Source: Parapedobacter composti
Lineage (GTDB): Bacteria > Bacteroidota > Bacteroidia > Sphingobacteriales > Sphingobacteriaceae
DNA length: 64,000 nucleotides
Direction of reading: 5' to 3'
Assembly: GCF_900112315.1 (NCBI RefSeq)
Contig: NZ_FOLL01000001.1
Coordinates: 310,001-374,000 of the forward strand
Notes under the pieces: model-generated
Databases searched by the model: none
What the model was told of the DNA's origin: nothing
Seen by the model: the letters and a program-made list of their open reading frames with translations, nothing else
Made by a program: the position numbers and the translations under genes
In this document: positions 4,752 through 51,623 of the stretch, in pieces
Numbering within the stretch: position 1 is the stretch's first letter
How the letters are laid out: each line of letters opens with the position of its first letter

Positions 4752-4783
4752 CCCCTTTCATTACTAATTTGGACTTTACGGTT

Positions 4784-6751: not shown

Positions 6752-6767
6752 GTGCCTAGACAGATAA

Positions 6768-6815
6768 GCGGTTATACCGACCGGAGGTATTACTTCCGGT
6801 CGGTTTAGTAACCGC
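6768..6815. terminator. Long two-step hairpin after the first SusC/SusD pair
   Basis: Outer arms GCGGTTA (6768-6774) and TAACCGC (6809-6815) enclose inner arms ACCGACCGGA (6776-6785) and TCCGGTCGGT (6795-6804), all perfectly complementary. A T-run (TTTTT at 6820-6824) follows after AATA, which fits an intrinsic terminator for the susD transcript. The same T-run is the first base block of the operator-like repeat of promoter A. Confidence 0.7.
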
Positions 6816-6819
6816 AATA

Positions 6820-6880
6820 TTTTTACCCGGAATTTGAATGATTTTTACCGGCAAATTAAACAGCCTCACCGTAGGTTTGC
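6820..6880 (+). promoter_or_regulatory. Promoter/operator module A (putative hybrid-regulator site)
   Basis: Two decamers, TTTTTACCCGG (6820-6830, one extra C) and TTTTTACCGG (6842-6851), start 22 bp apart. Exactly 20 bp later comes TAGGTTTGC (6872-6880), which fits the Bacteroidota -7 consensus TAnnTTTG. The same arrangement occurs at 18547-18607 and 41610-41670. A 22-bp direct repeat (two helical turns) suits the paired AraC-type DNA-binding domains of the hybrid sensor encoded at 14685-18413. Transcription would start near 6886 and run rightwards, antisense through the DUF6250-like gene, into the PL26 gene. The module is seen directly; regulator and start point are inferred. Confidence 0.72.
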
Positions 6881-6894
6881 AATGAGTGAACTGG

Positions 6895-7593
6895 TTATTC
6901 TTCGAGTTGGTAAACTCTAACGTTGTCTATACATTGGCGTGACCATGTGGAACGAAAGCCGAAATAACCACGGGTCAATGGCGAAGGGTCATGGTGGCTG
7001 AAAATTACCTGGCCGTCTACAGAAAATGTGGTCACACTGTCTTTGACAACAGTGCGGATATGGTAAGTGCGGTTGGCTTCCAGTAGGTGGTCATTCCGTT
7101 CGTAAAGTAAGGGTTTGCTTCCATCGCCCTCGTATTTACGGAAACGGGTCGTGGTATTGGTATTACCACCCATACCAACATAGTAAAGTGATAATGAATC
7201 ATAGCTTTCAAAAATACCGGATCGGGAAAACAGTTCATGGCCAGACGGATCAGTGGCCATCCAGAACTGATTCAGGTCAGACAGCCGATCATTTGCGCCA
7301 CTGTCCACAACGACGGTACGCTCATATTCAATGGCGATGTTGCCTTCCAGTGGCTTGTTCAGCCATACCGTCACGCCGCCGTAGGTGTCCAGCCACAGTT
7401 TGCCGTCCTGCACGTACACAGAAGAGTTGGGTTCAGGCGCAATTTCAGAAATCCAAAGCGATGTATCCAATCCTCGGCCAAAGTCATCTTCAAGAATCAG
7501 TCGCTGTCCGTTTTTTGTGCCGGATTCCGGCGGCTGGCAGCAATACAAGGTAAAAAAGGAAAGCAGTAGACCAATGGAAGAATAAGGTTTCAT
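6895..7593 (-). CDS. DUF6250-like (concanavalin-type fold) lipoprotein
   Basis: A 232-residue predicted lipoprotein with a hydrophobic signal ending in Cys 18/Cys 19 and a single beta-sandwich domain. Conserved-looking runs are LEDDFGRGLDTSLW, GVTVWLNKPLEG, DLNQFWMATDP, YYVGMGGNTNTTTRF and GYFGFRSTWS. I recognise this pattern as the DUF6250 family, found beside rhamnogalacturonan-degrading genes; the exact activity (lyase, hydrolase or binding) is not established by the sequence. It is inverted relative to unit A, its start lies only 21 bp from the PL26 start, and no obvious promoter fits in that gap, so its promoter probably lies inside the PL26 coding region. A transcript from promoter A would be antisense to it. 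Confidence 0.75.
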   Translation of the reverse strand: MKPYSSIGLLLSFFTLYCCQPPESGTKNGQRLILEDDFGRGLDTSLWISEIAPEPNSSVYVQDGKLWLDTYGGVTVWLNKPLEGNIAIEYERTVVVDSGANDRLSDLNQFWMATDPSGHELFSRSGIFESYDSLSLYYVGMGGNTNTTTRFRKYEGDGSKPLLYERNDHLLEANRTYHIRTVVKDSVTTFSVDGQVIFSHHDPSPLTRGYFGFRSTWSRQCIDNVRVYQLEE

Positions 7594-7614
7594 GTCGCTA
7601 AAATAGGGAATCAG

Positions 7615-10341
7615 ATGTTTATTCGAAATACTATATCACGAAGAAAATTTGTTAAAAGTACACTCGCCCTTACCGCAACATTACCTATAGCCGCGCCCCT
7701 GCCTTCGCTTCGGCCATCAAGGCCCGCACACACTGGCGAGGGCGTGTCCCTGCATTGGCTGCGTGGCGAGGCACCGACCGTTCCGCGCGGCATTACCTGG
7801 GGCGTGCCTTGGCCCAAGGGCGAACTGGACAACGTGGATAAACTAACGTTTGCCACGGCCGAAAATAAACCGGTACCGGCACAGCATTGGGTGACGGCCC
7901 GGTGGTCCGACGGATCGGTAAAATGGTCAGCACATGCGGCCAGTGTATCGGCATCTGAAGCGTCCAGGTATGTCTTGCTCCGTGCTAGTGGTACATCTTC
8001 GGCGCAGGCAGACGGCCAAATTGTGGTTACGCAGCACGATGAGGAGATTTCCGTGGATACAGGCGGCTTGCAGTATGTTTTTCCCAAGGCTGGCAACGTG
8101 TTGGTAAAGTCGATAAGCAATGGTAAACGGGTATTGGCCGCGGATGGACATTTGGTGCTACAATGGCAGAATACGCCGGAACCGATTAATGGTGAACCGC
8201 TCGAAAGCGATTCACTGGAAAGTGAAATCCACGAAATGCTGGTAGAGCACGTAGGCCCGATGCGTGCAGTCATCAAGGCAACGGGTATCCATCGCTCTCA
8301 GGCGACAGGGCGGGAGCTGCTGCCTTTCACGTTACGTTTTTATTGTTACCTTCATACACCTTCCCTCCGATTGGTCCATACCCTGGTGTATGATGCGGAT
8401 GAGTACAAAGACTTTATCAGCGGAATAGGGCTTCGGTTTGCTGTGCCGATGGTGGATGAGCTGCATAATCGGCACGTTCGGTTTTGCTCGGCCGATGGTG
8501 GGGTCTTTGCTGAAGCCGTTCGGGGGCTTACCGGCTTGCGGCGTGATCCCGGTAGGGCGGTAAGGAAAGCGCAGGTTGCTGGGCAAGCCACGCCGCCGGT
8601 TGCTGAGTTCAATCCGGTTGTAGCCAATGGATTGCAATACATTCCGGCATTCGGCGATTATACGCTTTGTCAGAATACGCCAGACGGGTTTGAAATCCGT
8701 AAGCGGACCGGCGCTGGCCATGGATGGATAGCCTCCGCATATGGAGATCGCTCGGTGGGGGTGGGGTACATTGGCGGCGCTTCGGGAGGGTTGGCATTTG
8801 GTATCCGTAATTTCTGGCAGAGCTTTCCGGCACAGGTGGATATCCGGCATGCGCACACGGAAGCGGCCGCATTGACGCTTTGGTTATGGTCGCCCTCCGC
8901 TCCGGCGATGGATCTTCGGTTTTACCACGACGGGATGGGGCAGGATACGTATGCTGAACAACTCGGCGGCTTGGACATTACCTACGAAGACTATGAGCCG
9001 GAATTCGGCACACCCCAAGGTATCGCCCGCACGAGTGAAGTTGAACTGTGGGCGATGGAACAGACGCCGCGCAACAACGAGCTCGCGGATATCGCCGAGC
9101 AGATACAGGATCCGTCGATCTTGGTTTGCGAACCGGCCTATTACGAGCGGTGCGGCGTGTTCGGTAAGGCATTTTCCGCAGCACCGGCAACCAACGAGAG
9201 GGAAAAGATGATTGAAAAACAGCTGGATTTTTATGTCGACTATTATAAACGGCAGATAGCACAACATCGTTGGTACGGATTCTGGAATTATGGCGATGTA
9301 ATGCATACCTACGATGGCGACCGCCATATGTGGCGGTACGACGTCGGCGGCTATGCATGGGATAACTCGGAATTATCAACCGATCTTTGGTTATGGTACT
9401 ACTTCCTTCGGTCGGGAAGGCACGATGTGTTCCGCATGGCGGAAGCCATGACGCGACATACCGGTGAGGTTGACGTGCACCATATCGGCCGTTTCGCTCC
9501 GCTGGGTTCCAGGCATAACGTTCTGCATTGGGGTTGCAGCGCCAAGCAACTACGTATCAGTACGGTAATCAATAGGCGCTTCTTTTATTACCTTACAGCA
9601 GATGAACGCGTGGGAGATTTGATGCGCGAACAGATCGACGGGGCCGAGGCCCTTAAACGGGTCGTTCCGGGCCGTAAAGTAGGACAGGTAGCGGCCACCG
9701 ATGAAAACAAGGTAAGTGTATCTTTTGGTACTGATTGGGGATCGCTGGCGGCTGCCTGGTTCACGGAATGGGAACGGACGGCCGACGAGCGGATGAAGAA
9801 CCGACTGATTGGTAGCATGGAAAGTATCGGCAGGCAGCCCCGTGGATTTTTCACGGGAACGGCAGATATGCAGTTGGAGAGCGGCGTATTTGATCGGGTT
9901 AAGCACAACGCCATTTCGGTGTCACACCTGAGTGCTGCATTCGGGCTCGCCGAAATCTGTGCTGAGCTGATCGATGCGTTCGATGTCCCCGAGTTTACCG
10001 AGGCCTGGTTACAGTATTGCATAGCTTATAATGCAGGCAGCGAATGGCAAGAACAGCATCTCGGTCGCGCATTAGGTAAGCTGAATCTGGAACAGGGGCA
10101 TAGCCGGCTGACCGCCTATGCCGGATGGTTCCTGAAAAACCGCACGTTACAGCAACGGGCTTGGGATGAGTTTTACGCCGGAGGCAGTGGGTTAAAGATG
10201 GGCGTCCCGGAAATGGCGACCATTGCACCTCCCGAAGTACTCAGTAAGCGGGATGAGGCACCTGCGGTTTCTACCAATGCGGTGGCTCAATGGAGTTTGG
10301 CGGCTATGCAATGTATGGCCTATGCAGGGGAGGCCCGTTAA
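7615..10341 (+). CDS. PL26-like rhamnogalacturonan exolyase (YetA/PcRGLX type), Tat-exported
   Basis: Predicted exo-acting lyase that releases unsaturated disaccharides from rhamnogalacturonan chains in the periplasm. The 908-residue protein begins with a twin-arginine signal (SRRKFVKS, Arg 9-Arg 10, then a hydrophobic stretch to about 30). The N-terminal beta-rich domain carries RGEAPTVPRGITWGVPWPKG, a run I associate with the YetA/PcRGLX family. A helical middle region (about 520-830) contains YDVGGYAWDNSELSTDLWLW and the His-rich TRHTGEVDVHHIGRFAPLGSRHNVLHWG. The family includes the Penicillium rhamnogalacturonan exolyase that founded PL26 and B. subtilis YetA from the pectin cluster. It is the first gene of unit A and is followed by GH105, which would act on its unsaturated products. 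Family assignment is by recalled motif, so exo-lyase activity is probable rather than certain. Confidence 0.78.
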   Translation: MFIRNTISRRKFVKSTLALTATLPIAAPLPSLRPSRPAHTGEGVSLHWLRGEAPTVPRGITWGVPWPKGELDNVDKLTFATAENKPVPAQHWVTARWSDGSVKWSAHAASVSASEASRYVLLRASGTSSAQADGQIVVTQHDEEISVDTGGLQYVFPKAGNVLVKSISNGKRVLAADGHLVLQWQNTPEPINGEPLESDSLESEIHEMLVEHVGPMRAVIKATGIHRSQATGRELLPFTLRFYCYLHTPSLRLVHTLVYDADEYKDFISGIGLRFAVPMVDELHNRHVRFCSADGGVFAEAVRGLTGLRRDPGRAVRKAQVAGQATPPVAEFNPVVANGLQYIPAFGDYTLCQNTPDGFEIRKRTGAGHGWIASAYGDRSVGVGYIGGASGGLAFGIRNFWQSFPAQVDIRHAHTEAAALTLWLWSPSAPAMDLRFYHDGMGQDTYAEQLGGLDITYEDYEPEFGTPQGIARTSEVELWAMEQTPRNNELADIAEQIQDPSILVCEPAYYERCGVFGKAFSAAPATNEREKMIEKQLDFYVDYYKRQIAQHRWYGFWNYGDVMHTYDGDRHMWRYDVGGYAWDNSELSTDLWLWYYFLRSGRHDVFRMAEAMTRHTGEVDVHHIGRFAPLGSRHNVLHWGCSAKQLRISTVINRRFFYYLTADERVGDLMREQIDGAEALKRVVPGRKVGQVAATDENKVSVSFGTDWGSLAAAWFTEWERTADERMKNRLIGSMESIGRQPRGFFTGTADMQLESGVFDRVKHNAISVSHLSAAFGLAEICAELIDAFDVPEFTEAWLQYCIAYNAGSEWQEQHLGRALGKLNLEQGHSRLTAYAGWFLKNRTLQQRAWDEFYAGGSGLKMGVPEMATIAPPEVLSKRDEAPAVSTNAVAQWSLAAMQCMAYAGEAR

Positions 10342-10386
10342 CCGTAAGGGACATCAATAACCGAATTTTAAGTGGAAAAACTAAAT

Positions 10387-11769
10387 ATGATGATTAAATC
10401 TTGCTTTCTGAATGTATCTGTAGTTGTGTTGTCCATAGCGGGTTGTCTATCTTCCTGTGGCGGTGGAGGAACGGGTCAAAAAAACGAAGTGACCAACGAT
10501 GTGAATACGCCGCTGCACTTGCTGAAGCCGGACTATCCGGTGTTTTATGGCGAAACAACGCCTGACGATGTGAAAGCGGTACTCGACCGCATACATGGCT
10601 ACCTTGATGATGCCACGCCGGTAGCCGTGATTAACAAAGGTAGTAAACGCCCGGTAGACGATCTTTCGTCGATTGATACGAATACCATATTTCAACAGGG
10701 TGATTTCCGGTTGATCAGCTATGAATGGGGAGTGACGTATGGCGCTATGCTTACTGCTGCCGAATCGACTGGAGACGAACGCTATCGGCAATACACGCAG
10801 CGGCGTATTGATTTCATCGCCGATGTTGTTGCGGCGTTCGAGGCGCTGCCTGAGACAGCGGGTGCTGCTTACCGTTCGCCCGTTCATTCCGTGACCCATC
10901 CGGGTGCATTGGATGATGCCGGGTCCATGTGTGCGGCCATCATTAAGGCGCATCAGGCGGGGGCGACAACGAAGGAAGTCCGGCCAATTGTCAATCGTTA
11001 TATCGATTATATCTTAAACAAAGAATTCCGGCTGGAAGATGGTACATTGGCGCGTAACAGACCGCTGCCGAATACCTTGTGGTTGGATGATCTGTACATG
11101 AGCCTTCCCGCCCTGGCACAGATGGCAAAGCTAACCGGTGAGACAACGTACTTCGATGAAGCCATCAGGCAGTTTTGGTTGTTTGCTGACCGGATGTTCG
11201 TTGCCGAAAAAGGACTTTACATGCATGGCTGGGTACAGGATATGGAACCGCATCCGCATTTCCATTGGGCGCGTGCCAACGGCTGGGCATTGCTTACCAA
11301 CGTTGAGCTGCTCAGCGCTTTACCGGATAACCATCCCGCACGCGCGAGATTGCTTGATCAATTCCGCGCGCACGTGCGGGGACTTGCCGCACTCCAGGAT
11401 GGTACCGGCTTTTGGCATCAGCTGTTGGATCGCAACGATACGTACCTCGAAACCTCCGCCACGGCAATTTATGCCTATTGTATCGCACATGGTATCAACC
11501 AGGGTTGGCTCGACGCCAAAGCTTATGGCCCAATGGTGCTGCAGGCATGGAATGCAGTGAGTACCCAGGTCAACGCGCAGGGGCAGGTAGAAGGAACCTG
11601 TGTCGGCACGGGTATGGGGTTTGATCCGGCCTTCTATTACCACAGGCCGGTGAATAAATATGCTGCGCATGGCTATGGCCCGGCCATCCTTGCCGGTGCC
11701 GAGGTTTACCGCTTACTCCGGAATAAACCTTTTGAAATCAATGACAGTGCGGTTATGTTTGCGGATTAA
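10387..11769 (+). CDS. GH105 unsaturated rhamnogalacturonyl hydrolase (lipoprotein)
   Basis: Removes the 4,5-unsaturated galacturonyl residue left by rhamnogalacturonan lyases. The frame is open from a GTG at 10372, but ATG 10387 gives a clean lipoprotein signal (MMIKSCFL...CLSSCGGG), so I use it (460 residues). The (alpha/alpha)6-barrel signatures are LWLDDLYMSLPALAQMAKL, with Asp 234 at the position of the GH105 catalytic Asp, HFHWARANGWALL, GFWHQLLDR, ETSATAIYAY and a C-terminal GTGMGFDPAFYYHRP. The next gene follows after 3 bp, so it belongs tightly to unit A. It resembles the GH105 at 47910 more than the one at 46515. Confidence 0.88.
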   Translation: MMIKSCFLNVSVVVLSIAGCLSSCGGGGTGQKNEVTNDVNTPLHLLKPDYPVFYGETTPDDVKAVLDRIHGYLDDATPVAVINKGSKRPVDDLSSIDTNTIFQQGDFRLISYEWGVTYGAMLTAAESTGDERYRQYTQRRIDFIADVVAAFEALPETAGAAYRSPVHSVTHPGALDDAGSMCAAIIKAHQAGATTKEVRPIVNRYIDYILNKEFRLEDGTLARNRPLPNTLWLDDLYMSLPALAQMAKLTGETTYFDEAIRQFWLFADRMFVAEKGLYMHGWVQDMEPHPHFHWARANGWALLTNVELLSALPDNHPARARLLDQFRAHVRGLAALQDGTGFWHQLLDRNDTYLETSATAIYAYCIAHGINQGWLDAKAYGPMVLQAWNAVSTQVNAQGQVEGTCVGTGMGFDPAFYYHRPVNKYAAHGYGPAILAGAEVYRLLRNKPFEINDSAVMFAD

Positions 11770-11772
11770 TCG

Positions 11773-14688
11773 ATGATGTCACTAACGAACGGAAAACCGG
11801 TATTACGTGCCGCCCGGAAACTATTTCCGGTACTGGTTCTCGTATTGTGGATGATGGGGGGTATTCCATACCAGGCGTTTTGCCAGCATCCCGCCACGGA
11901 GGTGCATTTTCTTTCCGGTACGGATAATGAACATACCGTAACATGGGACTTTTGGTGTTCCGGAGGGAGGAACAGCGGCACATGGGGTAAAATAGAGGTG
12001 CCATCCCACTGGGAGCAGCAGGGATATGGAAACTACAATTATGGACGCGATTACGTTACATACGGCAGAAATTTCCGGTTCCATGATGAAAAAGGGGTAT
12101 ATCGGCACGCGTTCGGCCTGCCCAGGGGATGGCCCGGGAAACGGGTATTCATCGTGTTTGAAGGGGTGATGACCGATGCTGAAGTTAAAATCAATGGACA
12201 GCTGGCAGGTCCCATACATCAAGGAGCTTTTTATCGGTTCAAGTATGATATCACGGATAAACTTCACGCCCATGGCTCGAACCAACTGGAGGTAGTCGTC
12301 AGTAAAATGTCGGCCGACCGTTCGGTAAACAATGCGGAGCGATTGGCGGATTATTGGATTTTCGGTGGCATTTACAGGCCAGTATACCTAGAGGCTGTTC
12401 CGCACACATTCATCGATTGGACTGCAATCGATGCGAAGGCCGACGGCACGTTTGCCATGCGGGTTCACATCGGGGGCGCCACCGCCGATCTTTCGGTGCA
12501 ATGCGAAATCTTTGATTCCAATGGCTTGACGGTAGGTAGCGCGAATGCCGCAGTCAAGCTGGGTGATTCTGTCGCCTTGCTGAAGACAGCAGTGACAGCC
12601 CCGGCCTTATGGACGGCCGAAACGCCGACACGGTATAACGTGCGGATTCAGTTGTTAAAAGAAGGGCAGGTTATTCACTCCAGCCAGGAAAAATTCGGAT
12701 TCCGGACCGTCGAAATACGGAAACAGGATGGCATATACATCAATGGCACTAAAGTGAAGATGAAAGGGGTGAACAGGCACGTATGGTGGCCTGAAACCGG
12801 GCGATCGGTCAACCCAACGATCGATCTGAATGATGTCAAGCTGATAAAACGCATGAACATGAATGCCGTGCGTTGTGCGCATTATCCGCCCGACAGGTCC
12901 TTCCTGAACGCCTGCGACTCACTGGGCTTGTATGTGCTGGATGAACTGGCAGGCTGGCAGCAGGCATACTCCACCGAAGTCGGCGCTAAGTTGGTGAAGG
13001 AAATGGTTATCCGTGACGTAAACCATCCTTCCGTGATTTTCTGGAGCAACGGCAACGAAGGAGGGCATAACTTCCGACTGGATACCGTTTTCGGCTACTA
13101 CGACTTGTCTAACCGTCCGGTCATCCATGCTCATCACCGCCCGGGAAATGCATTCAACGGGATAGACTGCAACCATTATGAGGATTATTACAGTACCGAA
13201 AAGATTCTGGCAGATACCAATATTTACATGACCACGGAGTTCCTGCATGCGCAGGACGATGGGGGCGGGGCGGCTGGCTTGGCAGATATCTGGGAGTTGC
13301 ATTGGCGCTCCAAGTTGGGTGCGGGTGGCTTTTTATGGGCGCTGGTTGATGAAGGGATTGTGCGCACCGATGAGGGAGAAACCATCGATGTCAACGGCGT
13401 AAATGCGCCGGACGGACTGGTGGGGCCTTACCGCGAAGAAGAGGGAAGTGTCAATGCCATACGGGAAATTTTTTCGCCCATCAACATATCACTACCGCGC
13501 TTGCCAGCTGATTTCTCAGGACGGATACCTGTGGAAAATCGCTATCATTTTACTGTTTTGGACGCGTGTACGGCAGCTTGGGAACTGATCGACTTTGATT
13601 TGCCTTTGTCCGGGGGCAGCGGCTATACGGTTAAACACCGGGGGAATGCGGCATTTCCCGCCATCGCACCGGCAGACAGCGGGCAGTTGCTACTGGATCT
13701 GCCGCGCAACTGGCGCGATTATGATGCACTTTCCCTGCGAGCCATTGATCCGCATGGGGATGAGGTTTATCGCTGGACGTGGAAGATACAGCCATCGGAA
13801 AAATTGGCTGTAAACCGTTTTGCTGAACCCGCAGACAGTGTGGTGCGGGTTAGCGATATGGATAGTGTTTTCTTGCTGCAGGCCAATGGTATCAGTGTGG
13901 CTATTCATAAGAAAACCGGCTTGCTGGCCGGGCTGAGTAACGTGAACAGCAAAAGCTTGTCTTTTCGTAATGGACCTGTCCTTGTGCAGGGCGAAGCCCT
14001 TCCTGAACGGGTGGAGTATACCATGGAAGATGGTGCAGCTGTAGTGACGGCCGCTTATAGCGGAAACCTGAAGTACATCACGTGGCGTATGGAGAAGACC
14101 GGGTGGCTGGAACTCCGTTACGGTTACCAGTTGGAAGAAGGCGAATACCCCTTCGCCGGGGTCAGCTTCAATTATCCCGAAAATTACGTACTCGGCGTTA
14201 AATGGCTCGGAAAGGGGCCTTACCGAGTCTGGAAAAACCGGTTGCAGGGGACCACTTATAGCGTTTGGAAAAATCGGAACAATAATACACAGACCGGTAG
14301 TTATCCTTGGGTTTATCCGGAGTTCAAGGGCTACTATGCTGACGTTTCGTGGATGGAATTCAACACGGTGGAGGGCAAATTTTATGTTAGCTTTCCCACA
14401 GAAGGCATGTATGTAAGGTTGTTTGACTTTTACGGCATCACCGGTCCTGAATCATATCCGGTATTGCCCTGTGGAGACGTTTCGTTTTTGGATTATATCC
14501 CTCCTGTTGGCGGTAAACTGGCACTTAACATCACCAGTGATCCCCGTGGGTTCGGGCCGAGCAGCGAACCGAACCGGCTGAACAACCGACTGATTGAGCG
14601 ACGGGTATATTTTTACTTCGGTTTACCGAAGGTGGATGACGGGAACAAGCAGTTCGAGATGCCCAAAGTCAACGTATTGACCGATTAG
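11773..14688 (+). CDS. GH2 glycoside hydrolase, beta-galactosidase-like
   Basis: Probably trims beta-linked galactose from RG-I side chains in the periplasm. The 971 residues hold an export signal (about 13-37), a sugar-binding jelly-roll (EVPSHWEQQGYGNYNYG, about 70-205), an Ig-like domain (about 210-315), and a TIM barrel (about 316-600) with MKGVNRHVWWPETGRSV and AVRCAHYPPDRSFLNACDSLGLYVLDE. The acid/base is Glu 429 in SNGNEGGHN and the likely nucleophile is Glu 489 in TTEFLHA. A beta-sandwich small-chain-like region ends the protein. It starts 3 bp after GH105, and its stop overlaps the convergent sensor gene by 4 bp, so there is no room for a terminator between them. Galactosidase specificity is inferred from family and context. 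Confidence 0.88.
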   Translation: MMSLTNGKPVLRAARKLFPVLVLVLWMMGGIPYQAFCQHPATEVHFLSGTDNEHTVTWDFWCSGGRNSGTWGKIEVPSHWEQQGYGNYNYGRDYVTYGRNFRFHDEKGVYRHAFGLPRGWPGKRVFIVFEGVMTDAEVKINGQLAGPIHQGAFYRFKYDITDKLHAHGSNQLEVVVSKMSADRSVNNAERLADYWIFGGIYRPVYLEAVPHTFIDWTAIDAKADGTFAMRVHIGGATADLSVQCEIFDSNGLTVGSANAAVKLGDSVALLKTAVTAPALWTAETPTRYNVRIQLLKEGQVIHSSQEKFGFRTVEIRKQDGIYINGTKVKMKGVNRHVWWPETGRSVNPTIDLNDVKLIKRMNMNAVRCAHYPPDRSFLNACDSLGLYVLDELAGWQQAYSTEVGAKLVKEMVIRDVNHPSVIFWSNGNEGGHNFRLDTVFGYYDLSNRPVIHAHHRPGNAFNGIDCNHYEDYYSTEKILADTNIYMTTEFLHAQDDGGGAAGLADIWELHWRSKLGAGGFLWALVDEGIVRTDEGETIDVNGVNAPDGLVGPYREEEGSVNAIREIFSPINISLPRLPADFSGRIPVENRYHFTVLDACTAAWELIDFDLPLSGGSGYTVKHRGNAAFPAIAPADSGQLLLDLPRNWRDYDALSLRAIDPHGDEVYRWTWKIQPSEKLAVNRFAEPADSVVRVSDMDSVFLLQANGISVAIHKKTGLLAGLSNVNSKSLSFRNGPVLVQGEALPERVEYTMEDGAAVVTAAYSGNLKYITWRMEKTGWLELRYGYQLEEGEYPFAGVSFNYPENYVLGVKWLGKGPYRVWKNRLQGTTYSVWKNRNNNTQTGSYPWVYPEFKGYYADVSWMEFNTVEGKFYVSFPTEGMYVRLFDFYGITGPESYPVLPCGDVSFLDYIPPVGGKLALNITSDPRGFGPSSEPNRLNNRLIERRVYFYFGLPKVDDGNKQFEMPKVNVLTD

Positions 14689-18413: not shown

Positions 18414-18463
18414 GAGCCTATAATTAGATCCGATATGGACTGGTTAGCGATAATTGGTTATCA

Positions 18464-18471
18464 CAAATATA
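18464..18471 (-). promoter_or_regulatory. Probable -7 box of the hybrid sensor gene
   Basis: On the minus strand this reads TATATTTG, a perfect TAnnTTTG. It lies about 50 bp upstream of the sensor start codon, giving a leader of roughly 45 nt. A clear -33 TTTG was not seen, so the call rests on the -7 box and position only. Confidence 0.5.
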
Positions 18472-18546
18472 ACATATCCAGTTGAAACATGCATCCCGTA
18501 CTATCATGCATTATTGTGTTATAGACACTTTTTCGATGGAGATACA

Positions 18547-18607
18547 ATTTTACCGGAAATTTGAATGATTATTACTTATCCCTTGCCGCTGTTCTGCGTA
18601 CGTTTGC
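18547..18607 (+). promoter_or_regulatory. Promoter/operator module B (putative hybrid-regulator site)
   Basis: ATTTTACCGG (18547-18556) is followed by TTTGAATGA and, 22 bp after the first decamer, by the weaker copy TTATTACTTA (18569-18578). After exactly 20 bp comes TACGTTTGC (18599-18607), matching the TAnnTTTG -7 consensus. The spacing equals that of modules A and C. It would start the 10-gene unit B with a leader of about 380 nt. The second half-site is the most degenerate of the six, which may mean weaker or differently tuned binding. Confidence 0.7.
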
Positions 18608-18993
18608 ATAAGTCACTGATTCTTGGTGGTTGTCCAACGGAGAGGGAACAAAAAGTGCAACAAATTAAACCAATTGCTATGTTATGATAATGTACTTCAA
18701 AACTTCACGAAAAGGAAATCTTTCATGCTACTTGGGTAGGCCGGATTTTTAGCGGCCGGAACTCAATCGGGAGTGTCCGGTATGATGCCGCGGCAGGAAG
18801 GCCGAGGGCGTTGCCCGCAGTTTGCCTGCATAGCCTGGGCATACCCTGAGAAGGTGTTTCTGGGTGGCCTCTTCATGAGCCTATTTTGAGCGACCTAAAA
18901 CGCATGTGATTGCCGTAAAGATGACAGGGAATGCCGGCCCTGTACTTGCCAACTAAACTGAAAAGTACTAACGTCTTTTTAAAGACCTGAAGA

Positions 18994-21198: not shown

Positions 21199-21210
21199 AC
21201 GCTTTTTTCC

Positions 21211-24474: not shown

Positions 24475-24485
24475 TCGATGACAAA

Positions 24486-25985: not shown

Positions 25986-26014
25986 TAAGCATGTAAACAT
26001 AAAATTAGTTCGAT

Positions 26015-27706: not shown

Positions 27707-27732
27707 TATATGCCGCTGATAAAAATTGATTC

Positions 27733-29229: not shown

Positions 29230-29249
29230 TACAATAAGCGGAATAGGTT

Positions 29250-32453: not shown

Positions 32454-32473
32454 GCATTTTAATGGTGGAAAGC

Positions 32474-34237: not shown

Positions 34238-34299
34238 TGCTAACGGCAACAAAAGGGAATATACCGAATGATTGACCTAACTTTAAAAAACGGAATGCA

Positions 34300-37200
34300 A
34301 TGAACAGGAATTACGCGTGCTTCGCCGTTGTGCTGCTTATTTTGATGCAATTGGGAAACAGGCATTTGTTTGCCCAAAGCACCCCCACGAATCAATGGCA
34401 ATTGCTGGGGAGGGGAGAGGAAATTGCCAGTGGTGCCTCGGCCTTTACTAGTATGGCCGCTGTCACGAATTACGAAGGTAACCGAGAAGCGACACCTTAT
34501 ATCGCCTTTGTCGAAAATAACATTGCCAAGGTGAAGCGGCTGGCGGGCGGGCTGTGGCAGCAGGTGGGTGGCGATGTTTCTCCGGGCAATGCCTCGCACA
34601 CGAACATTTTTGCCGACGGGGGTAACCGGCTATACGTGGCCTACGCGGATCTGGCCAACGGCAATCGTTTGGCGGTTAAGCGGTTCAACGCGGCCACGCA
34701 GGCATGGGAGCCGCTTGGCGGCGACCCGTACGTTTCGGAGGGTTCCATACTGAACGGCACGAGCCAGCTGCGTGTCTCCCGGAATAACTGGATGGCCTTC
34801 GACCGGAACAACGTTCCCTACGTGGTGTACGCGGAGATGGGTTCGGGCGGCCGCCCCCACGTGAAGCGTTTCGTGAACGGTTCATGGGAGCTGGTCGGTT
34901 CGGGCGGATTTGCTGCAGAGCGGGCATCGGGAGTTTGCATAGCGTTCGATGAGGGGGATACGCCTTACGTGACGTATGCCGGGGGCGACGGCAGCACGGG
35001 CGACCTCCGTGCGTTCCGGTTTTCGGGAGGGGCCTGGGCGGCGCTTCCGGCTTCGGGCATCGGCGGAGTGCGTCATGCATCGTCGGTGGTGCTTGACGGT
35101 CGGCTGTACGTCCTGTACATGGACGCCAGCACGAACAGCTTCGGCACGGTGTCGTTTCTGGATCTTTCCACGGGGGCATGGACAGCGGTGTTCGGTGGCC
35201 GTCTTTCGGGGCGCAACACGGAAGTGCTGACACTGGCCAAAGACGGGCTGGGCAACCTGTACGCATCGTTTCAGGACGTCATCACGAACAACTCGGGCCG
35301 CAGCGTGGTGCGGGTGCGCCGGTTGGCGGCAGGTGCCGACACTTGGGATGAATTGACTGCAGGAGGAGCATCTGAATCGGGAGTGGACGAGCCGGGATTT
35401 GAGTCGTTTCTGTATGTAGATAAACAAGGGAACCCCTATATCAGTTATGTAAAGGCAAATGCGGGGGGAGTAAACACCCCTATCGTACGTAAATTTGACC
35501 TCATACAAGTGCCGCCAGCGGCAGAAAGGGGGCCTTACAATGCATGGGAACTGTTGGGAGAAGGGCAACAGGTGGCGTCAGGTGCTTCAACGTATACTTC
35601 GGTGGCCACCATCCGGGAATATGGTACTACAGCAACTTATGTGGCGTTTGTAGAAAATGGCGTGGCCAGGGCAAGGCGGCAATTGTACGGGATGTGGGAA
35701 TGGGTCGGCGGGGATATTTCTCCGGGCAATGCTTCGCACACAAACATTTTTGCCGACGGGGGTAACCGGCTATACGTGGCCTATGCGGACCTGGCCAACG
35801 GCAATCGCTTGGCGGTTAAGCGGTTCAACGCGGCCACGCAGGCATGGGAGCCGCTTGGCGGCGACCCGTACGTTTCGGAGGGTTCCATACTGAACGGCAC
35901 GAGCCAGCTGCGTGTCTCCCGGAATAACTGGATGGCCTTCGACCGGAACAACGTTCCCTACGTGGTGTACGCGGAGATGGGTTCGGGCGGCCGCCCCCAC
36001 GTGAAGCGTTTCGTGAACGGTTCATGGGAGCTGGTCGGTTCGGGCGGATTTTCTGCAGAGCGGGCATCGGGAGTTTGCATAGCGTTCGATGAGGGAGATA
36101 CGCCTTACGTGACGTATGCCGGGGGCGACGGCAGCACGGGCGACCTCCGTGCGTTCCGGTTTTCGGGAGGGGCCTGGGCGGCGCTTCCGGCTTCGGGCAT
36201 CGGCGGAGTGCGTCATGCATCGTCGGTGGTGCTTGACGGTCGGCTGTACGTCCTGTACATGGACGCCAGCACGAACAGCTTCGGCACGGTGTCGTTTCTG
36301 GATCTTTCCACGGAGGCATGGACAGCGGTGTTCGGTGGCCGTCTTTCGGGGCGCAACACGGAAGTGCTGACACTGGCCAAAGACGGGCTGGGCAACCTAT
36401 ACGCGTCGTTTCAGGACGTCATCACGAACAACTCGGGCCGCAGCGTGGTGCGGGTGCGCCGGCTGGCGGCAGGTGCCGACACCTGGGGTGAACTGGACGC
36501 CGGCGGGAGTTCCGAAATCGGTATTGACGAACCCGGTTACGATCTTTTCCTGCATGTAGACCGCTACAATCAACCCTATGTGGCATATGTAAAAGCTAAT
36601 GCCAGCGGTGTGAATACACCGGTTGTACGGCGTTTCAACCTGAATTTATCGCCCGATACGGAAGAACCCGACGAAGTGGTAACCACCCCAAAACAGCTGG
36701 AAACACTGGACAGGGGGCTGGTGGCCGTGCGCACGGCGCCCGATAAGGTGTACATCGGATGGCGGCTGTTTGGTACCGACCCCACGGATATCGCATTCAA
36801 CGTATACCGTGGTGATGAGCGGATTAATGACGAACCGATTGCCAACTCAACCAATTTTGTAGACGAGACCGAAGACTTGACCGCCACGTATGCCATACGT
36901 CCTGTAGTAGGCGGCGAAGAACAGGCCGCAACCTATCCGGTGCGCGTATGGGACAGTAACTTTCTTTCGATACCATTGGATATCCCGCAGGGTGGCACGA
37001 CACCCGATGGAGTAAATTATACCTATACACCCGGTGACGCGAGCGTGGGCGATCTGGATGGCGACGGACGGTACGAGATTATCCTGAAGTGGGACCCTAC
37101 CAATCAGAAGGACAATGCTCATGACGGCTATACGGGCAATGTATACATTGACGCATACCGGCTGGATGGAACGAAGTTGTGGCGGATTGATTTGGGTAAA

Positions 37201-39510
37201 AACATCCGGGCGGGAGCACACTATACCCAGTTCATCGTGTATGACCTTGATGGCGATGGGAAGGCCGAAATCGCCATGAAGACAGCCGACGGCACGGTGG
37301 ACGGTACCGGTATGGTCATTGGCGATGCGGAGATCGATCACCGCAACGAAGCGGGCCGCATATTGGCGGGCCCCGAATTTTTGACCATTTTCAATGGGCT
37401 AACCGGGGCAGCTATGGCTACAACGGACTATTTGCCGGCCCGCGGAAACGTCAGCAGTTGGGGCGACGATTGGGGCAACCGTTCGGAGCGTTACGTTGCT
37501 GCGGTAGCTTACTTGGACGGAGCGCGGCCAAGCTTGGTCATGGGCAGGGGATACTACACCCGGCTGGTGCGTGTAGCCTGGGATTGGCGCGATGGTGAAC
37601 TTACCCACCGATGGACATTCGATAGCAATGATCCCGGCAATGAAGCCCATGCCGGGCAGGGCAACCACCAGATGACCGTGGGCGATATTGATGACGACGG
37701 CAAAGACGAAATCATCAACGGCGCCAGCATCATCAATGACAACGGACGTCCGTATGCCGCCAACGGCCGGGGCCATGGCGATGCCTTACACATGACCCGT
37801 ATGTTCCCCGACCGTCCAAACCAGCAGATTTGGCAGTCATATGAAGATCCGGCAACGTTTGGAGAATATGGGGCGGAGCTACGCGATGCCAAGACTGGAG
37901 AAACCCTCTTCGGTGTGCCGGCCAGCAATGATGTAGGCCGTGCGATGGCAGCGGACATCGACCCCAACTATCCCGGTTATGAATTATGGAGCACAGCCAA
38001 TGGTAATGTGTACAACGGAACGGGAGAGGTTATCAGCACCAACCGGCCGAGCATCAACTTCGGTATCTGGTGGGATGGCGACTTGCAGCGCGAATTGCTG
38101 GATGGAACCGTTATCGATAAATGGAACCCGGTAACAAAGAACGCTCAGCGATTGGTTTCGTTTTTCCAGTCGGCCAACGCCGAAAGCATCAACGGTACCA
38201 AGGCTACCCCCAACCTTCAAGCTGATATCTTGGGCGACTGGCGGGAAGAAGTTATATACCGGACGTCAGACAACTCCCGGTTGCTTATTTTTACAACCAC
38301 CATACCAACGGAATACCGTATCCATACGCTGATGCATAATCCACAGTACCGCACAGCCATTGCCTGGCAGAACAGCGGATACAACCAGCCCCCGTATCCA
38401 AGCTTTTATCTTGGCGAGGGCATGGAAATGCCCGAACCACCGAATATTGAGCTTACGGAGGTTGAAAAGCAACCGCAAGACATCGACTTCCCTGATGTGG
38501 GGTATAAGTCGGTTAAAGATGAACCTTTTGACCCGGGTGCAGTGGCAACATCGGCATTACCTGTCACCTATATGAGCGCCGATCCGTCCATAGCCGACGT
38601 AGTCAATGGACGTATTGTTCCCAAGGGTGTCGGCACGGTCACTATCACTGCAGTGCAGCAGGGAAATGCGCTTTGGTTGCCGGCAGAAACCACCCGAGAC
38701 ATTACGTTCCTCGAACTGATGCCCCAATCCATTGCTTTTGATCCGCTGGATAAACTGATTACCGAATATGACGACCTGGATCCCGGCGCGACCGCAAGCT
38801 CTGGTCTCCCTGTTGCTTACATCAGCAGTGACGAGTCAATAGCCATCATTGTGGATGGGAAAATCCGGGGAATAGCCGGAGGAACGGTAATCATCACCGC
38901 TGTGCAGGAGGGTGACGACTATTGGGAAGCCGCATCTCCCGTATCACATGAACTGCTGGTAATCCCACGGGCCGCCCAAACCATCGCCTTCCATCCCATA
39001 CCGGAACTGAAGGTGGATCACGGCGACTACGACCCGCAAGCGACAGCGACATCGGGGCTGCCCGTTATTTATACGAGCAGCAATACCGATGTAGCCCGGG
39101 TCATCGACGGCAAAATCCGGATATTCCGCGAGGGGACGGCTACCATCGTAGCCAGCCAGCCGGGCGACTCGCTATGGTATGCGGCACCGGATGTTGCGCA
39201 CACGCTCGTGGTAGTTGGTCCCGATGAACCGGAGGTAAGTAGCGCGGTATCGCCCAATGGCGATGGTGAAAACGACATTCTCTTCATCGAGGGTATCCAG
39301 AATTACCCCCAGAACTGGTTGGTCATCATGGACCGCAATGGCGTGGAGGTGTTCCGTATAGCGGGATACAACAACCGAGATAAGGTGTTTGATGGAAGAA
39401 GCAGTACCAACAGATTGCTGCCCCAAGGTACATATTTCTACATATTGGAAACCACGTACAAGGGAGAGACTAAACGCAGGAAGGGGTGGTTCATGCTTAA
39501 ATATCAATGA
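34300..39510 (+). CDS. Giant surface PL11 rhamnogalacturonan lyase with twin propellers, Ig-like repeats and T9SS type B sorting domain
   Basis: A 1736-residue secreted enzyme. Order: signal peptide (1-26); two tandem propeller-like blocks (about 28-400 and 410-780), each with seven units of the form PYVxY...G.W..LGG; a PL11 catalytic domain (about 796-1380) with LDRGLVAV, GDASVGDLDGDGRYEII, LKWDPTNQKDNAHDGYTG and YDLDGDGKAEIAMKTADGT (the D-rich loops are calcium sites in this family); three Ig-like repeats (about 1388-1640, each with a SSDESIAxVxxGKIRG-like strand); and a CHU_C/gliding-motility type C-terminal domain (about 1645-1736, SPNGDGENDILFIEG, WFMLKYQ). The last is a type B signal for type IX secretion. 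The next gene, overlapping by ATGA, is a PorP/SprF homologue, the usual partner of such cargo. Backbone-cleaving lyase at the cell surface is a firm inference; the propeller function is unknown. Confidence 0.92.
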   Translation: MNRNYACFAVVLLILMQLGNRHLFAQSTPTNQWQLLGRGEEIASGASAFTSMAAVTNYEGNREATPYIAFVENNIAKVKRLAGGLWQQVGGDVSPGNASHTNIFADGGNRLYVAYADLANGNRLAVKRFNAATQAWEPLGGDPYVSEGSILNGTSQLRVSRNNWMAFDRNNVPYVVYAEMGSGGRPHVKRFVNGSWELVGSGGFAAERASGVCIAFDEGDTPYVTYAGGDGSTGDLRAFRFSGGAWAALPASGIGGVRHASSVVLDGRLYVLYMDASTNSFGTVSFLDLSTGAWTAVFGGRLSGRNTEVLTLAKDGLGNLYASFQDVITNNSGRSVVRVRRLAAGADTWDELTAGGASESGVDEPGFESFLYVDKQGNPYISYVKANAGGVNTPIVRKFDLIQVPPAAERGPYNAWELLGEGQQVASGASTYTSVATIREYGTTATYVAFVENGVARARRQLYGMWEWVGGDISPGNASHTNIFADGGNRLYVAYADLANGNRLAVKRFNAATQAWEPLGGDPYVSEGSILNGTSQLRVSRNNWMAFDRNNVPYVVYAEMGSGGRPHVKRFVNGSWELVGSGGFSAERASGVCIAFDEGDTPYVTYAGGDGSTGDLRAFRFSGGAWAALPASGIGGVRHASSVVLDGRLYVLYMDASTNSFGTVSFLDLSTEAWTAVFGGRLSGRNTEVLTLAKDGLGNLYASFQDVITNNSGRSVVRVRRLAAGADTWGELDAGGSSEIGIDEPGYDLFLHVDRYNQPYVAYVKANASGVNTPVVRRFNLNLSPDTEEPDEVVTTPKQLETLDRGLVAVRTAPDKVYIGWRLFGTDPTDIAFNVYRGDERINDEPIANSTNFVDETEDLTATYAIRPVVGGEEQAATYPVRVWDSNFLSIPLDIPQGGTTPDGVNYTYTPGDASVGDLDGDGRYEIILKWDPTNQKDNAHDGYTGNVYIDAYRLDGTKLWRIDLGKNIRAGAHYTQFIVYDLDGDGKAEIAMKTADGTVDGTGMVIGDAEIDHRNEAGRILAGPEFLTIFNGLTGAAMATTDYLPARGNVSSWGDDWGNRSERYVAAVAYLDGARPSLVMGRGYYTRLVRVAWDWRDGELTHRWTFDSNDPGNEAHAGQGNHQMTVGDIDDDGKDEIINGASIINDNGRPYAANGRGHGDALHMTRMFPDRPNQQIWQSYEDPATFGEYGAELRDAKTGETLFGVPASNDVGRAMAADIDPNYPGYELWSTANGNVYNGTGEVISTNRPSINFGIWWDGDLQRELLDGTVIDKWNPVTKNAQRLVSFFQSANAESINGTKATPNLQADILGDWREEVIYRTSDNSRLLIFTTTIPTEYRIHTLMHNPQYRTAIAWQNSGYNQPPYPSFYLGEGMEMPEPPNIELTEVEKQPQDIDFPDVGYKSVKDEPFDPGAVATSALPVTYMSADPSIADVVNGRIVPKGVGTVTITAVQQGNALWLPAETTRDITFLELMPQSIAFDPLDKLITEYDDLDPGATASSGLPVAYISSDESIAIIVDGKIRGIAGGTVIITAVQEGDDYWEAASPVSHELLVIPRAAQTIAFHPIPELKVDHGDYDPQATATSGLPVIYTSSNTDVARVIDGKIRIFREGTATIVASQPGDSLWYAAPDVAHTLVVVGPDEPEVSSAVSPNGDGENDILFIEGIQNYPQNWLVIMDRNGVEVFRIAGYNNRDKVFDGRSSTNRLLPQGTYFYILETTYKGETKRRKGWFMLKYQ
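34576..35350 (+). repeat. Direct DNA repeat, copy 1 (propeller block 1)
   Basis: About 775 bp that recur at 35716-36490, offset exactly 1140 bp (380 codons), with roughly a dozen base differences by eye and long stretches (for example 34681-34860) identical. The flanking parts of the two 380-codon units are clearly diverged, so only the core is nearly identical. Confidence 0.95.
35716..36490 (+). repeat. Direct DNA repeat, copy 2 (propeller block 2)
   Basis: Second copy of the 775-bp segment at 34576-35350. Visible differences include Ala to Ser (tttgctgca against tttctgca near 36051), Gly to Glu (acgggggca against acggaggca near 36313) and several silent changes. Recombination between the copies would delete 1140 bp in frame. 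Confidence 0.95.
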
Positions 39511-40439
39511 TAAAAGTTAGAATTATGCTACGAATGATTGTAAAAAACGCCCGGTACCTGCTGACGGCCATCGGACTTATCAGTACAGCGGCCGCTCAGC
39601 AGCCTATCATGTATACGCAATATACGCATGATTTGACCTACATCAATCCCGCTTATTCGCTGATACAGGGTCAGGGGGCTATCAATACCATCCTGCGCCG
39701 GCAGTGGGTGGGTATGGATGATGCTCCCACTACATTTTTTCTGAACGGCTATATACCTATCCACCAATTCGGTGCTTCAGCAGGAATCAACGTCATGCAC
39801 GACCGTCTCGGTCCGGAACGCTTTATGGATGCCGGTGTGTTCGTCGCCAAGTCGGTGCGCCTGTCCGAAAAAACCTACATGGGCACAGCATTGGGCGTAA
39901 GCATCAAACGCTACGAATTGAATGCGTCGCAGTATGCTCCGCGCGACGCGGTGTTCCGCAATGATGAAAGGGAGACCACGGGCAACCTGGCAATCGGGCT
40001 TACCCTGTATGAGCCGGACAAGTTCTATGTAAGCGTGTCGGTACCCCGCATCAATTTCCGGTTTTTGGAAGATGCACGGGAAGGGGCCGAGCAATATTTC
40101 AGGAACAATTATTATGGAGCTGCGGCCTACTTGGTTAACCTGGGGGGAGGGATCAAGCTGAAGCCAGCGATGTTGGTAGCCATCACGCCCGAGCAGCCCG
40201 TGCTGGCCGATTTCGCCGCTACCGCGTATCTGAAAGACTTGGTTGGCTTCGGTGTGAGCTACCGTACCACAGATAACCTCGGCTTCCTGGGGTATGTGTT
40301 TATTGATCGCTTCCGTATCGGATATACCTATCAATTCGGGCTCCATAGCCACTTGGCTTCCGGACGGTTCAGCAGCGCTACCCATGAGGTAGGGCTGGGT
40401 TATCGCTTCGGCAGTGCAAAAAGGGGGGGACTATTATAA
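39507..40439 (+). CDS. PorP/SprF-family type IX secretion membrane protein
   Basis: 310-residue outer-membrane beta-barrel with signal peptide (LLTAIGLISTAAAQ) and the typical start of the family (QQPIMYTQYTHDLTYINPAYSLIQGQGAINTILRRQWVGMDDAPTTFFLNGYIPI). The C-terminal half shows alternating strands and ends HEVGLGYRFGSAKRGG. SprF/PorP-like proteins assist secretion or surface attachment of cargo bearing type B C-terminal domains and are usually encoded right after that cargo. Here the ATG overlaps the stop of the giant PL11, which has such a domain, so the two are translationally coupled. An in-frame ATG at 39525 is an alternative start. Family assignment is strong; the pairing is inferred from position. 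Confidence 0.92.
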   Translation: MIKVRIMLRMIVKNARYLLTAIGLISTAAAQQPIMYTQYTHDLTYINPAYSLIQGQGAINTILRRQWVGMDDAPTTFFLNGYIPIHQFGASAGINVMHDRLGPERFMDAGVFVAKSVRLSEKTYMGTALGVSIKRYELNASQYAPRDAVFRNDERETTGNLAIGLTLYEPDKFYVSVSVPRINFRFLEDAREGAEQYFRNNYYGAAAYLVNLGGGIKLKPAMLVAITPEQPVLADFAATAYLKDLVGFGVSYRTTDNLGFLGYVFIDRFRIGYTYQFGLHSHLASGRFSSATHEVGLGYRFGSAKRGGLL

Positions 40440-40458
40440 AACGGTTAACCATTCAGCG

Positions 40459-41202
40459 ATGAAGAATTTATATTACGTGCTGTTTATCAGCGGGATGCTA
40501 TCGGCGGTAGGTGCGGTGGCCCAGCCACAGACATATGTGCTTGTGCACGGTGCCTGGGGCGGCGGCTGGTCATTCAAAAAGACAGACTCCCTATTGCGCA
40601 CGATGGGCAATGAAGTCTACCGCCCCACGCTCACCGGTCTGGGCGAACGCGTGCACCTCGCTTCCGAAGCCGTTGATTTAGAAACACACATCAAGGATGT
40701 GATAAATGTCATTTTGTTTGAAAACCTGCACAACGTCGTGCTTGTCGGGCACAGCTATGGCGGCATGGTCGTAACCGGGGTAGCCGACAGCCTGCCGGAA
40801 CGTATCGGTAAATTGATCTACCTGGATGCGTTTGTGCCGGACGACGGCCAGAGTGCTTTCTCGGCACGGGGCTCGGATAATCAAGGCAGGGGGATGCGCA
40901 CCGAAAACGGCCTGATTCCGCCGTTTGGAAAAAAGGAGGGACTTCCGCGGGATGTACCGCATCCGGCCAAGACATTTTCCCAGCCAATCCGGCTGAAAAA
41001 CCCCGTACGGCTAAAGCTGCCAACCACCTACATCCTCACTTATGAAGGCGATAATCCGGAAAAAGATACGTTTGCTCCGTTTGCCGCGAAAGCGAAGCAG
41101 ATGGGATGGAAGACCATCAATATGCAGGCCGACCATAATCCGCAGATGACCATGCCGCAGGTACTTGCGGAACTGCTGGAAGAAGAGGGGCGAGCTCATT
41201 GA
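40459..41202 (+). CDS. Exported alpha/beta-hydrolase, putative esterase
   Basis: 247-residue alpha/beta-hydrolase with an N-terminal signal peptide (MKNLYYVLFISGMLSAVGAVAQ). The frame opens at a GTG (40414) inside the preceding gene, but ATG 40459 gives the signal sequence and is preferred. Catalytic features are the oxyanion-hole LVHGAWGGGWS, nucleophile Ser 99 in GHSYGGM, and a C-terminal His in ADHNPQMTMP. The runs RPTLTGLGERVHLAS and LDAFVPDDGQS place it near EstC and plant methyl-esterase-like proteins. As the last gene of an RG-I operon it might remove methyl or acetyl esters from pectic oligosaccharides, but this is inference; family members have many substrates. Confidence 0.8.
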   Translation: MKNLYYVLFISGMLSAVGAVAQPQTYVLVHGAWGGGWSFKKTDSLLRTMGNEVYRPTLTGLGERVHLASEAVDLETHIKDVINVILFENLHNVVLVGHSYGGMVVTGVADSLPERIGKLIYLDAFVPDDGQSAFSARGSDNQGRGMRTENGLIPPFGKKEGLPRDVPHPAKTFSQPIRLKNPVRLKLPTTYILTYEGDNPEKDTFAPFAAKAKQMGWKTINMQADHNPQMTMPQVLAELLEEEGRAH

Positions 41203-41703
41203 TTTAATGTAAAGATTTCAGAAGAAGTTTTATTTTTTCGTATTAGGAAAAATATGGTTGAGGTGATAAACCCTCCAAAGTCAATTCATCTTCGCTCCGA
41301 GGCGCGTTTCAAAAATGAACGGGGTGAAAATTGTTTTCACGCCCGGTGAATCTTCCGATTCAGCCCGTTGTTGCCGGCTTCCGATGCCGACGGTTTGGGG
41401 AGCATTGCATTTTTGGGCTGAATTATGCGCTCTGGCGGCTTTAAATTTTGGATGGGCTAATGTTCCGCCAAGAAAAAGAAAGCCGCATAGGCGATACGTT
41501 TATTTTTTTCATAACAAGAAATTTGTGTTTGGTCGAAAAATCGCCAGTTCCTTTTCCGGCTATCGGATTTCGATCTAAGAATGAGGACAGAATGGGGAAA
41601 AACGAAACATTTTTACCGGAGTTTTGCACGATTTTTACCGGATGCGCAAGGGGTATAGCTGTAGATTTGCAGGAACCCGATTTCTTCACTTCGTGATAGA
41701 CCT
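41203..41703. other. Intergenic region before unit C
   Basis: 501 bp without a convincing gene; two short overlapping reading frames (41315-41578, 41448-41696) have no recognisable features. The region holds a perfect 7-bp inverted repeat GTGAAAA-TTG-TTTTCAC (41324-41340), a wider 9-bp inverted repeat ATTCAGCCC/GGGCTGAAT (41358-41366 and 41415-41423), and promoter module C at its right end. The inverted repeats may end unit B. Confidence 0.6.
41610..41670 (+). promoter_or_regulatory. Promoter/operator module C (putative hybrid-regulator site)
   Basis: The best copy of the module: two perfect TTTTTACCGG decamers (41610-41619 and 41632-41641) start 22 bp apart, followed after exactly 20 bp by TAGATTTGC (41662-41670), a perfect TAnnTTTG -7 box. 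The start of transcription would be near 41676, about 28 nt before the GH2 start codon at 41704. It drives unit C. Confidence 0.78.
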
Positions 41704-46492: not shown

Positions 46493-46514
46493 ACTAACCG
46501 CAAACAGATAGTTT

Positions 46515-47675: not shown

Positions 47676-47775
47676 GACCTGTGTTAGACCCGGAATCGTT
47701 TGCGTAGATTTAGTTTCTGATTTCAGTTTATTGTATATGGTTGTTAATCAGATTTTTGTCTTAATGGTGCGTACA

Positions 47776-47800
47776 GATGCAACAGGATGCAACAGGATGC
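47776..47800 (+). repeat. 2.5 tandem copies of a 10-bp unit
   Basis: GATGCAACAG at 47776-47785 and 47786-47795, then GATGC. It lies in the 234-bp gap between two GH105 genes, which otherwise holds AT-rich sequence and no clear promoter or gene. Confidence 0.7.
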
Positions 47801-47909
47801 TGGATTCTTTTAAACAAATATTATTGTATCCGCTAACCGCTGAACTGATGAGCGGATTTAACTATATAAAATACTTATTGAAGATTATAAACTTTAGATT
47901 AAGTCACAG

Positions 47910-51604: not shown

Positions 51605-51623
51605 ACGAAACTCATTGATCGGG

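Follow-up and report, generated by a model that had tools for sequence, protein, structure and literature searches.

Introduction

How can three separate transcription units of one polysaccharide locus be placed under the control of a single sensor? The question is raised by a rhamnogalacturonan I (RG-I) locus of the soil bacterium Parapedobacter composti lying in the window analysed here, a stretch of 64,000 nucleotides from contig NZ_FOLL01000001.1, in which Pfam finds a PcRGLX-type lyase, two PL11-type lyases, three GH88/105 and two GH2 enzymes, as well as GH31, GH106 and three SusC/SusD pairs. The same short module, a direct repeat followed at a fixed distance by a promoter -7 box, occurs in three places in this locus, and a hybrid two-component system protein (HTCS) is encoded beside one of them. 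In all likelihood, judging from sequence comparison, each module is one activator-dependent promoter of this HTCS and three transcription units, here called units 1, 2 and 3, are co-activated, so that a single sensor very probably switches on all of this pectin-digesting cluster. Control of this kind is known, and the module clearly adds a new case to it. The modules and their proposed activator are as follows (profile R1 is described below).

6820-6881, plus strand: module 1; half-sites 6820-6829 and 6842-6851; -7 box TAGGTTTG at 6872-6879; profile E 2.4e-9
18547-18608, plus strand: module 2; half-sites 18547-18556 and, weak, 18569-18578; -7 box TACGTTTG at 18599-18606; profile E 1.8e-6
41610-41671, plus strand: module 3; half-sites 41610-41619 and 41632-41641; -7 box TAGATTTG at 41662-41669; profile E 5.3e-8
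14685-18413, minus strand: HTCS with Reg_prop/Y_Y_Y sensor, HisKA, HATPase, receiver and AraC-type helix-turn-helix (HTH) domains (Pfam); proposed activator
14718-14954, minus strand: AraC-type DNA-binding domain of the HTCS, residues 1154-1232 (Pfam HTH_18 and alignment)

The Module and Its Regulator

Read directly from the sequence, copy 1 has the half-sites TTTTTACCCG at 6820 and TTTTTACCGG at 6842, copy 2 has ATTTTACCGG at 18547 and TTATTACTTA at 18569, and copy 3 has TTTTTACCGG at 41610 and again at 41632. The decamers form a direct repeat with a start-to-start distance of 22 bp in all three copies, and the end of the second decamer is followed after exactly 20 bp by the -7 box (TAGGTTTGCA, TACGTTTGCA and TAGATTTGCA in copies 1, 2 and 3), which conforms to TAnnTTTGC in each case. 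A sequence-only reading of the window had described this module, with its fixed 22-bp and 20-bp geometry, at 6820, 18547 and 41610, and direct reading confirms it. The same reading had held that the sequence between the decamers is also alike and that the copies stand before units without coding similarity at their 5' ends. Pairwise identity is indeed 25, 26 and 23 of 32 bases over repeat and spacer and 9, 9 and 8 of 10 over the -7 box, whereas the flanks are unrelated (22, 12 and 17 of 60 bases upstream; 4, 16 and 18 of 60 downstream). The gap between repeat and box agrees at 6, 6 and 4 of 20 positions.

The HTCS unites in a single chain a predicted periplasmic sensor, HisKA, HATPase and receiver domains and the AraC-type HTH, and it is the only AraC-type HTH protein in the window. 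The sequence-only reading was therefore right in counting one hybrid AraC-type regulator, though the locus also contains an ECF (extracytoplasmic function) sigma/FecR pair and a GntR-type regulator. Module 2 is divergent from the HTCS gene, and this HTCS-adjacent divergent place is conserved in Sphingobacterium.

Uniqueness in the Genome

The combined pattern of repeat, spacer and box has three matches in the 4.62-Mb genome and none in its reversed control, and when three mismatches are allowed the matches are still only those at 6820, 18547 and 41610. Profile R1, which was built from 29 sites, none of them from the window, likewise recovers exactly the three window copies from the whole genome (E 2.4e-9, 5.3e-8 and 1.8e-6); after these the E value rises to 0.22, for a fragment of 22 bases. 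All 29 aligned sites from other genomes carry TAnnTTTG, a figure to be read with the fact that the sites were picked by scores that include the box. With a matrix derived from 18 sites, all of them in other genomes, the window copies score 45.5, 43.2 and 36.5; the next scores in the window are 4.7, which is copy 1 shifted by one base, and 2.9, and the best score in 30 shuffled windows is 8.8.

The same genome has six further full-length HTCS genes; no module was found in their neighbourhoods, where the best score with the 18-site matrix was 2.9. A repeat search at these six places gave one repeat beyond chance (reached by 4 of 300 shuffles), one borderline case (17 of 300) and no repeat beyond chance at the other four (35 or more of 300), so that a repeat geometry common to all HTCS of the genome is weakly supported. 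The sequence-only reading had proposed scanning the genome and related genomes for a spread over many unrelated genes; no such spread was found, and the three genome matches all lie in the RG-I locus.

Association with the HTCS in Related Genomes

The comparison set consisted of 301 genomes of the family, and labels beginning with G and L denote genomes and loci of this set. Full-length HTCS orthologues are present at 29 loci in 28 of the 301 genomes, with 46-100% identity; the next group of HTCS relatives begins at 39% identity and is without the N-terminal part of the alignment. For the closest orthologue (67% identity; L125 / G003:C100:44880-48602), the alignment reports a single internal TAA stop. 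Upstream of the HTCS, the best divergent match beat all 280 shuffles at 17 of the 28 loci scanned, the window's own included, with a consensus that was written after some sites had been seen. A motif-free search, using only TAnnTTTG and repeat identity, likewise selects 22 bp at these sites. A held-out matrix made from 17 Sphingobacterium (g16) sites only gave the window copies scores of 43.3, 39.0 and 34.0 and found exactly these three; among 67 control loci taken from other HTCS relatives (1.43 Mb), no score exceeded 18.1.

At a threshold of E 5e-4, profile R1 has matches in 28 of the 301 genomes. These include 23 of the 28 with a full-length HTCS orthologue, a figure that is largely circular because the profile was built from such sites, and 5 of the 273 without one, a figure that is not circular. 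The five are G087 and four genomes with weak matches (G005, G018, G097 and G293; 22.3-25.8 bits). In G087 the HTCS is a remnant of approximately residues 767-1232 (ATPase, receiver and HTH) between GH105 and PL11 genes (L154 10050-15531), and a good module is retained before GH105. Among the nine Parapedobacter genomes, the module is found in all three with the HTCS and in the one with the remnant, and in none of the five without the HTCS.

At the 17 Sphingobacterium sites the module is divergent from the adjacent HTCS gene, at 141-630 bp from its start. The half-sites approximate WTTTTACNGG and again repeat at 22 bp, and the -7 box follows after 20 or 21 bp. In these genomes, the first gene behind the module is a relative of the GntR-type regulator at all 17 loci (53-56% identity), followed by GH2 at 14 of them; since these genes differ from those of unit 2 in the window, the site goes with the regulator rather than with any one target. 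The congener G003 has three sites, before SusC/SusD, before DUF6250/PcRGLX/GH105, and before a GDSL hydrolase followed by GH105. Parapedobacter indicus (G093/L077) has two, before SusC/SusD and GH105, and G087 has its single site before GH105. In congeners, too, the predicted targets of the module are thus RG-I-type genes.

Likeness of the first recognition helix (HTH1) to that of the window HTCS goes with site score (Spearman 0.75 over 27 genomes, a value that still contains the effect of shared ancestry), and likeness of the whole protein gives a Spearman coefficient of 0.29 (p 0.15). This suggests that change in the recognition helix is linked to change in the site.

Several observations weigh against the assignment of the module to the HTCS. 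The second decamer of copy 2 is degenerate, differing at 4 of 10 bases with TTAC retained. The bare 28-mer without the -7 box, at three mismatches, is unselective, with hits in 33 of the 301 genomes against about 40 for the reversed control (judged by eye). Five of the 28 orthologue genomes have no R1 match at E 5e-4, under stricter filters, and in G120, G011, G193 and G034 the matrix gives no score above 11.6 in the stretches of about 20 kb covered; in G191, also one of the five, a weaker site is present, with its repeat at 21 bp. In G120 the HTH1 helix is nearly unchanged (13 of 14 residues), yet no site was found. Likeness of the HTH2 helix relates to site score with the opposite sign (Spearman -0.48, p 0.01). 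Finally, the match in G102 (22.9 bits), counted among the 23, is no stronger than the four stray matches, and G294 carries a second, stray match of 25.2 bits.

Proposed Mechanism and Transcription Units

We infer binding, activation, ligand and start sites along the following lines. A periplasmic ligand, most likely an RG-I oligosaccharide, would trigger the HTCS kinase, and the resulting phosphorylation of the receiver would release the DNA-binding domain. The half-sites (approximately ACRWTTTTACNGG), being 22 bp apart and thus two helical turns along the same face, would each take one AraC-type domain of an HTCS dimer. With 20 bp between it and the -7 box, the downstream half-site reaches to about the expected position of a -33 element, so that the bound HTCS could contact and recruit the polymerase, and the freed DNA-binding domains would thereby activate the three units together. 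These units, and a gene that lies before the first of them, are listed below.

7615-14688, plus strand: unit 1; PcRGLX-type rhamnogalacturonan lyase, GH88/105, GH2 (Pfam); proposed target of module 1
18994-41202, plus strand: unit 2; fasciclin, SusC, SusD, two fasciclin genes, SusC, SusD, PL11 with type IX signal, PorP/SprF, alpha/beta hydrolase
41704-55796, plus strand: unit 3; GH2, PL11, two GH88/105, GH31, GH106, GntR-type regulator
6895-7593, minus strand: DUF6250 gene (Pfam E 3.5e-65), convergent to module 1, between module 1 and unit 1

The sequence-only reading had placed the three copies at the heads of their units. Only copy 3 has a short leader (34 nt); copy 2 is followed by a leader of 387 nt (18607-18993) before the first gene of unit 2 at 18994, and copy 1 is parted from the gene at 7615 by the convergent DUF6250 gene, which that reading had overlooked.

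Module 1 and the Convergent DUF6250 Gene

Module 1 lies 735 nt from the first plus-strand gene, with the whole opposite gene between. The DUF6250 gene, whose start is 21 bp from that of PcRGLX and whose product was judged by eye to be a lipoprotein, is taken as a real gene because its differences from relatives follow codon-position bias, with counts at positions 1/2/3 of 50/42/122 against G003 and 56/36/138 against G087 (230 codons in either comparison). The order of module, DUF6250 (minus), PcRGLX (plus) and GH105 (plus) recurs in G003 (L193, module at 6637, block 6637-7458), at protein identities of 72% and 69%. In G087 the DUF6250/PcRGLX pair is present without the module.

Since DUF6250 lies between module 1 and its proposed operon, the transcript would have to run antisense through DUF6250 for about 0.7 kb, and the best reading of this arrangement is that module 1 makes a long antisense leader to unit 1. 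We infer a single transcript spanning DUF6250 from the gene order, which is present in both the window and G003. It is less probable that module 1 would only yield antisense RNA against DUF6250, with unit 1 served by a different promoter: the distance of 735 nt and the intervening gene speak for this, and antisense RNAs linked to polysaccharide utilization loci, such as DonS, are known (PMC7366714), but in both the window and G003 the plus strand from module 1 to PcRGLX contains no exact TAnnTTTG (promoters of other types being possible). Moreover, the block from module to GH105 is kept in G003 even though the preceding gene is a rhamnosidase there and SusD in the window, and antisense starts that serve downstream genes have been noted for Bacteroides thetaiotaomicron, where they make up about 22% of antisense starts (PMC7366714). 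Taken together, an antisense-only role appears unlikely.

The long-leader reading may be carried further, though tentatively and with somewhat less than even confidence, to an excludon kept by selection, in which the HTCS at module 1 would turn on the PcRGLX-GH105-GH2 operon and, by means of the antisense 0.7-kb leader that covers DUF6250 entirely, turn that gene off. DUF6250's own transcripts would in turn cross the HTCS site of module 1; no exact TAnnTTTG was found within 400 bp upstream of DUF6250 as a promoter of its own. If the excludon reading is true, a polysaccharide sensor trades one surface protein for an enzyme operon.

Other Candidates for the Recogniser

The GntR-type regulator encoded at 54765-55796 might be thought to recognise the module, given that in all 17 Sphingobacterium loci the module stands between the HTCS and the GntR relative (53-56% identity). 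GntR-family operators are usually inverted repeats, and the module is a direct repeat. GntR relatives occur in 209 of the 301 genomes, and orthologues in eight of the nine Parapedobacter genomes, so that their presence does not predict the module. Four Parapedobacter genomes (G028, G045, G068 and G078) have a GntR protein 84-91% identical to that of the window, no HTCS orthologue and no profile match, the single bare-pattern match in G045 (three mismatches) scoring below 10 with the matrix. The GntR-type regulator as recogniser is accordingly very improbable and was set aside.

Slighter still is the case for a generic strong promoter or a dispersed genus repeat with no regulon meaning: TAnnTTTG is indeed the general -7 box of Bacteroidota (PMC7366714), but only three copies occur in 4.62 Mb, all in the RG-I locus and with unrelated flanks, none lies near the six other full-length HTCS genes, and the five congeners without the HTCS are also without the module, so this explanation too was set aside.

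The inference in the sequence-only reading that the module is the HTCS operator and that the three units form one regulon is thus supported by uniqueness in the genome, recurrence beside HTCS orthologues in other genera, recovery of exactly three copies by the Sphingobacterium-only matrix, presence and absence among the 301 genomes, and the poor fit of GntR.

Relation to Known Systems

The half-sites resemble those of AraC at araBAD, where araI1 and araI2 form a direct pair with a spacing of about 21 bp and the proximal member extends into the region of polymerase contact. The araBAD AraC differs in being a soluble arabinose sensor with no kinase, acting at a sigma-70 promoter and through DNA looping.

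HTCS sites in Bacteroides are direct repeats with a mean distance of 21 bp, including two RG-I regulons (PMC3878776). As in the locus described here, HTCS_Rgu-1 (BT4111/BT4124) and HTCS_Rgu-2 (BT4178/BT4182) of B. thetaiotaomicron control several RG-I operons via direct repeats, with sites of two 12-bp units and a 9-bp spacer (21 bp) or two 14-bp units and a 6-bp spacer (20 bp) (PMC3878776). The present module differs in belonging to another family and genus and in its 22-bp period; the comparison is one of repeat geometry, and the description of the Bacteroides sites gives no distance to the -7 box. BT4124, an RG-I HTCS, gives band shifts on its susCD promoter, and its binding is phosphorylation-dependent (PMC11253607). 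The sequence-only reading, which knew of no published description, therefore implied too much novelty, as direct-repeat HTCS sites have been published for Bacteroides (PMC3878776). For Sphingobacteriaceae, no description of HTCS sites turned up among the open-licence PMC papers searched, including the portions consulted of PMC12125979 and PMC10766802. The layout at module 1 resembles the noncontiguous operon, or excludon (PMC7154746), in having an opposite-strand gene inside the stretch presumed to be transcribed; it differs in its HTCS-type promoter and in that the opposite gene precedes the first gene of the operon and so would fall within the leader.

For an RG-I HTCS of Sphingobacteriaceae, the module thus offers a concrete putative operator whose promoter geometry is exactly defined and whose footprints extend over several genera, so that the regulon becomes predictable in other genomes. 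Module 1 also gives an example of a probable HTCS promoter from which transcription would have to pass through a gene on the opposite strand.

Neighbouring Genes and Further Features

To the left of module 1 lies a SusC/SusD pair (1344-6751) whose SusC has an STN domain, with a FecR gene (5-1204) in front (Pfam) and an ECF sigma gene just left of the window (L243 5303-5911; sigma/FecR stretch L243 5303-7205). The orthologous SusC and SusD show 75 and 78% identity in G003 and 75 and 77% in P. indicus (L167 3821-9122 and L169 2-3701 for the two congeners). The congener orthologues align only from residue 129 or 115 onward and have no STN match in Pfam, and the G003 and P. indicus pairs have an HTCS module in front. 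One transporter pair thus appears to be tied to two different control systems within the genus Parapedobacter, which points to a regulator swap. Two further features lie close to modules 1 and 2.

6776-6804, no strand assigned: strong inverted repeat between SusD (ending at 6751) and module 1, read directly
18464-18471, minus strand: candidate -7 box of the HTCS gene, TATATTTG, between module 2 and the HTCS start (by position only)

The inverted repeat may insulate module 1 from the SusC/SusD unit. A smaller terminator-like hairpin is found at 6801-6814, with three such sites in the stretch against 1.4 expected. Additional promoters may lie within unit 3, in two gaps of 234 and 358 bp.

The 387-nt leader of unit 2 was set aside as a known or unusually stable RNA: Rfam gave no match at gathering score in the window, with weak matches at chance level only, folding was not unusually stable (z +0.56), and the leader is single-copy in the genome. 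Compared by eye and unaligned, it showed no likeness to the leaders before orthologues in G191 and G110. The orthologue in L204 of the unit 2 fasciclin gene is also preceded by a leader of similar length. The intergenic gaps within unit 2 are below 70 bp, and at 34300-41202 a PL11 lyase carrying a type IX secretion domain (CHU_C) adjoins PorP/SprF-like and alpha/beta hydrolase genes in one operon.

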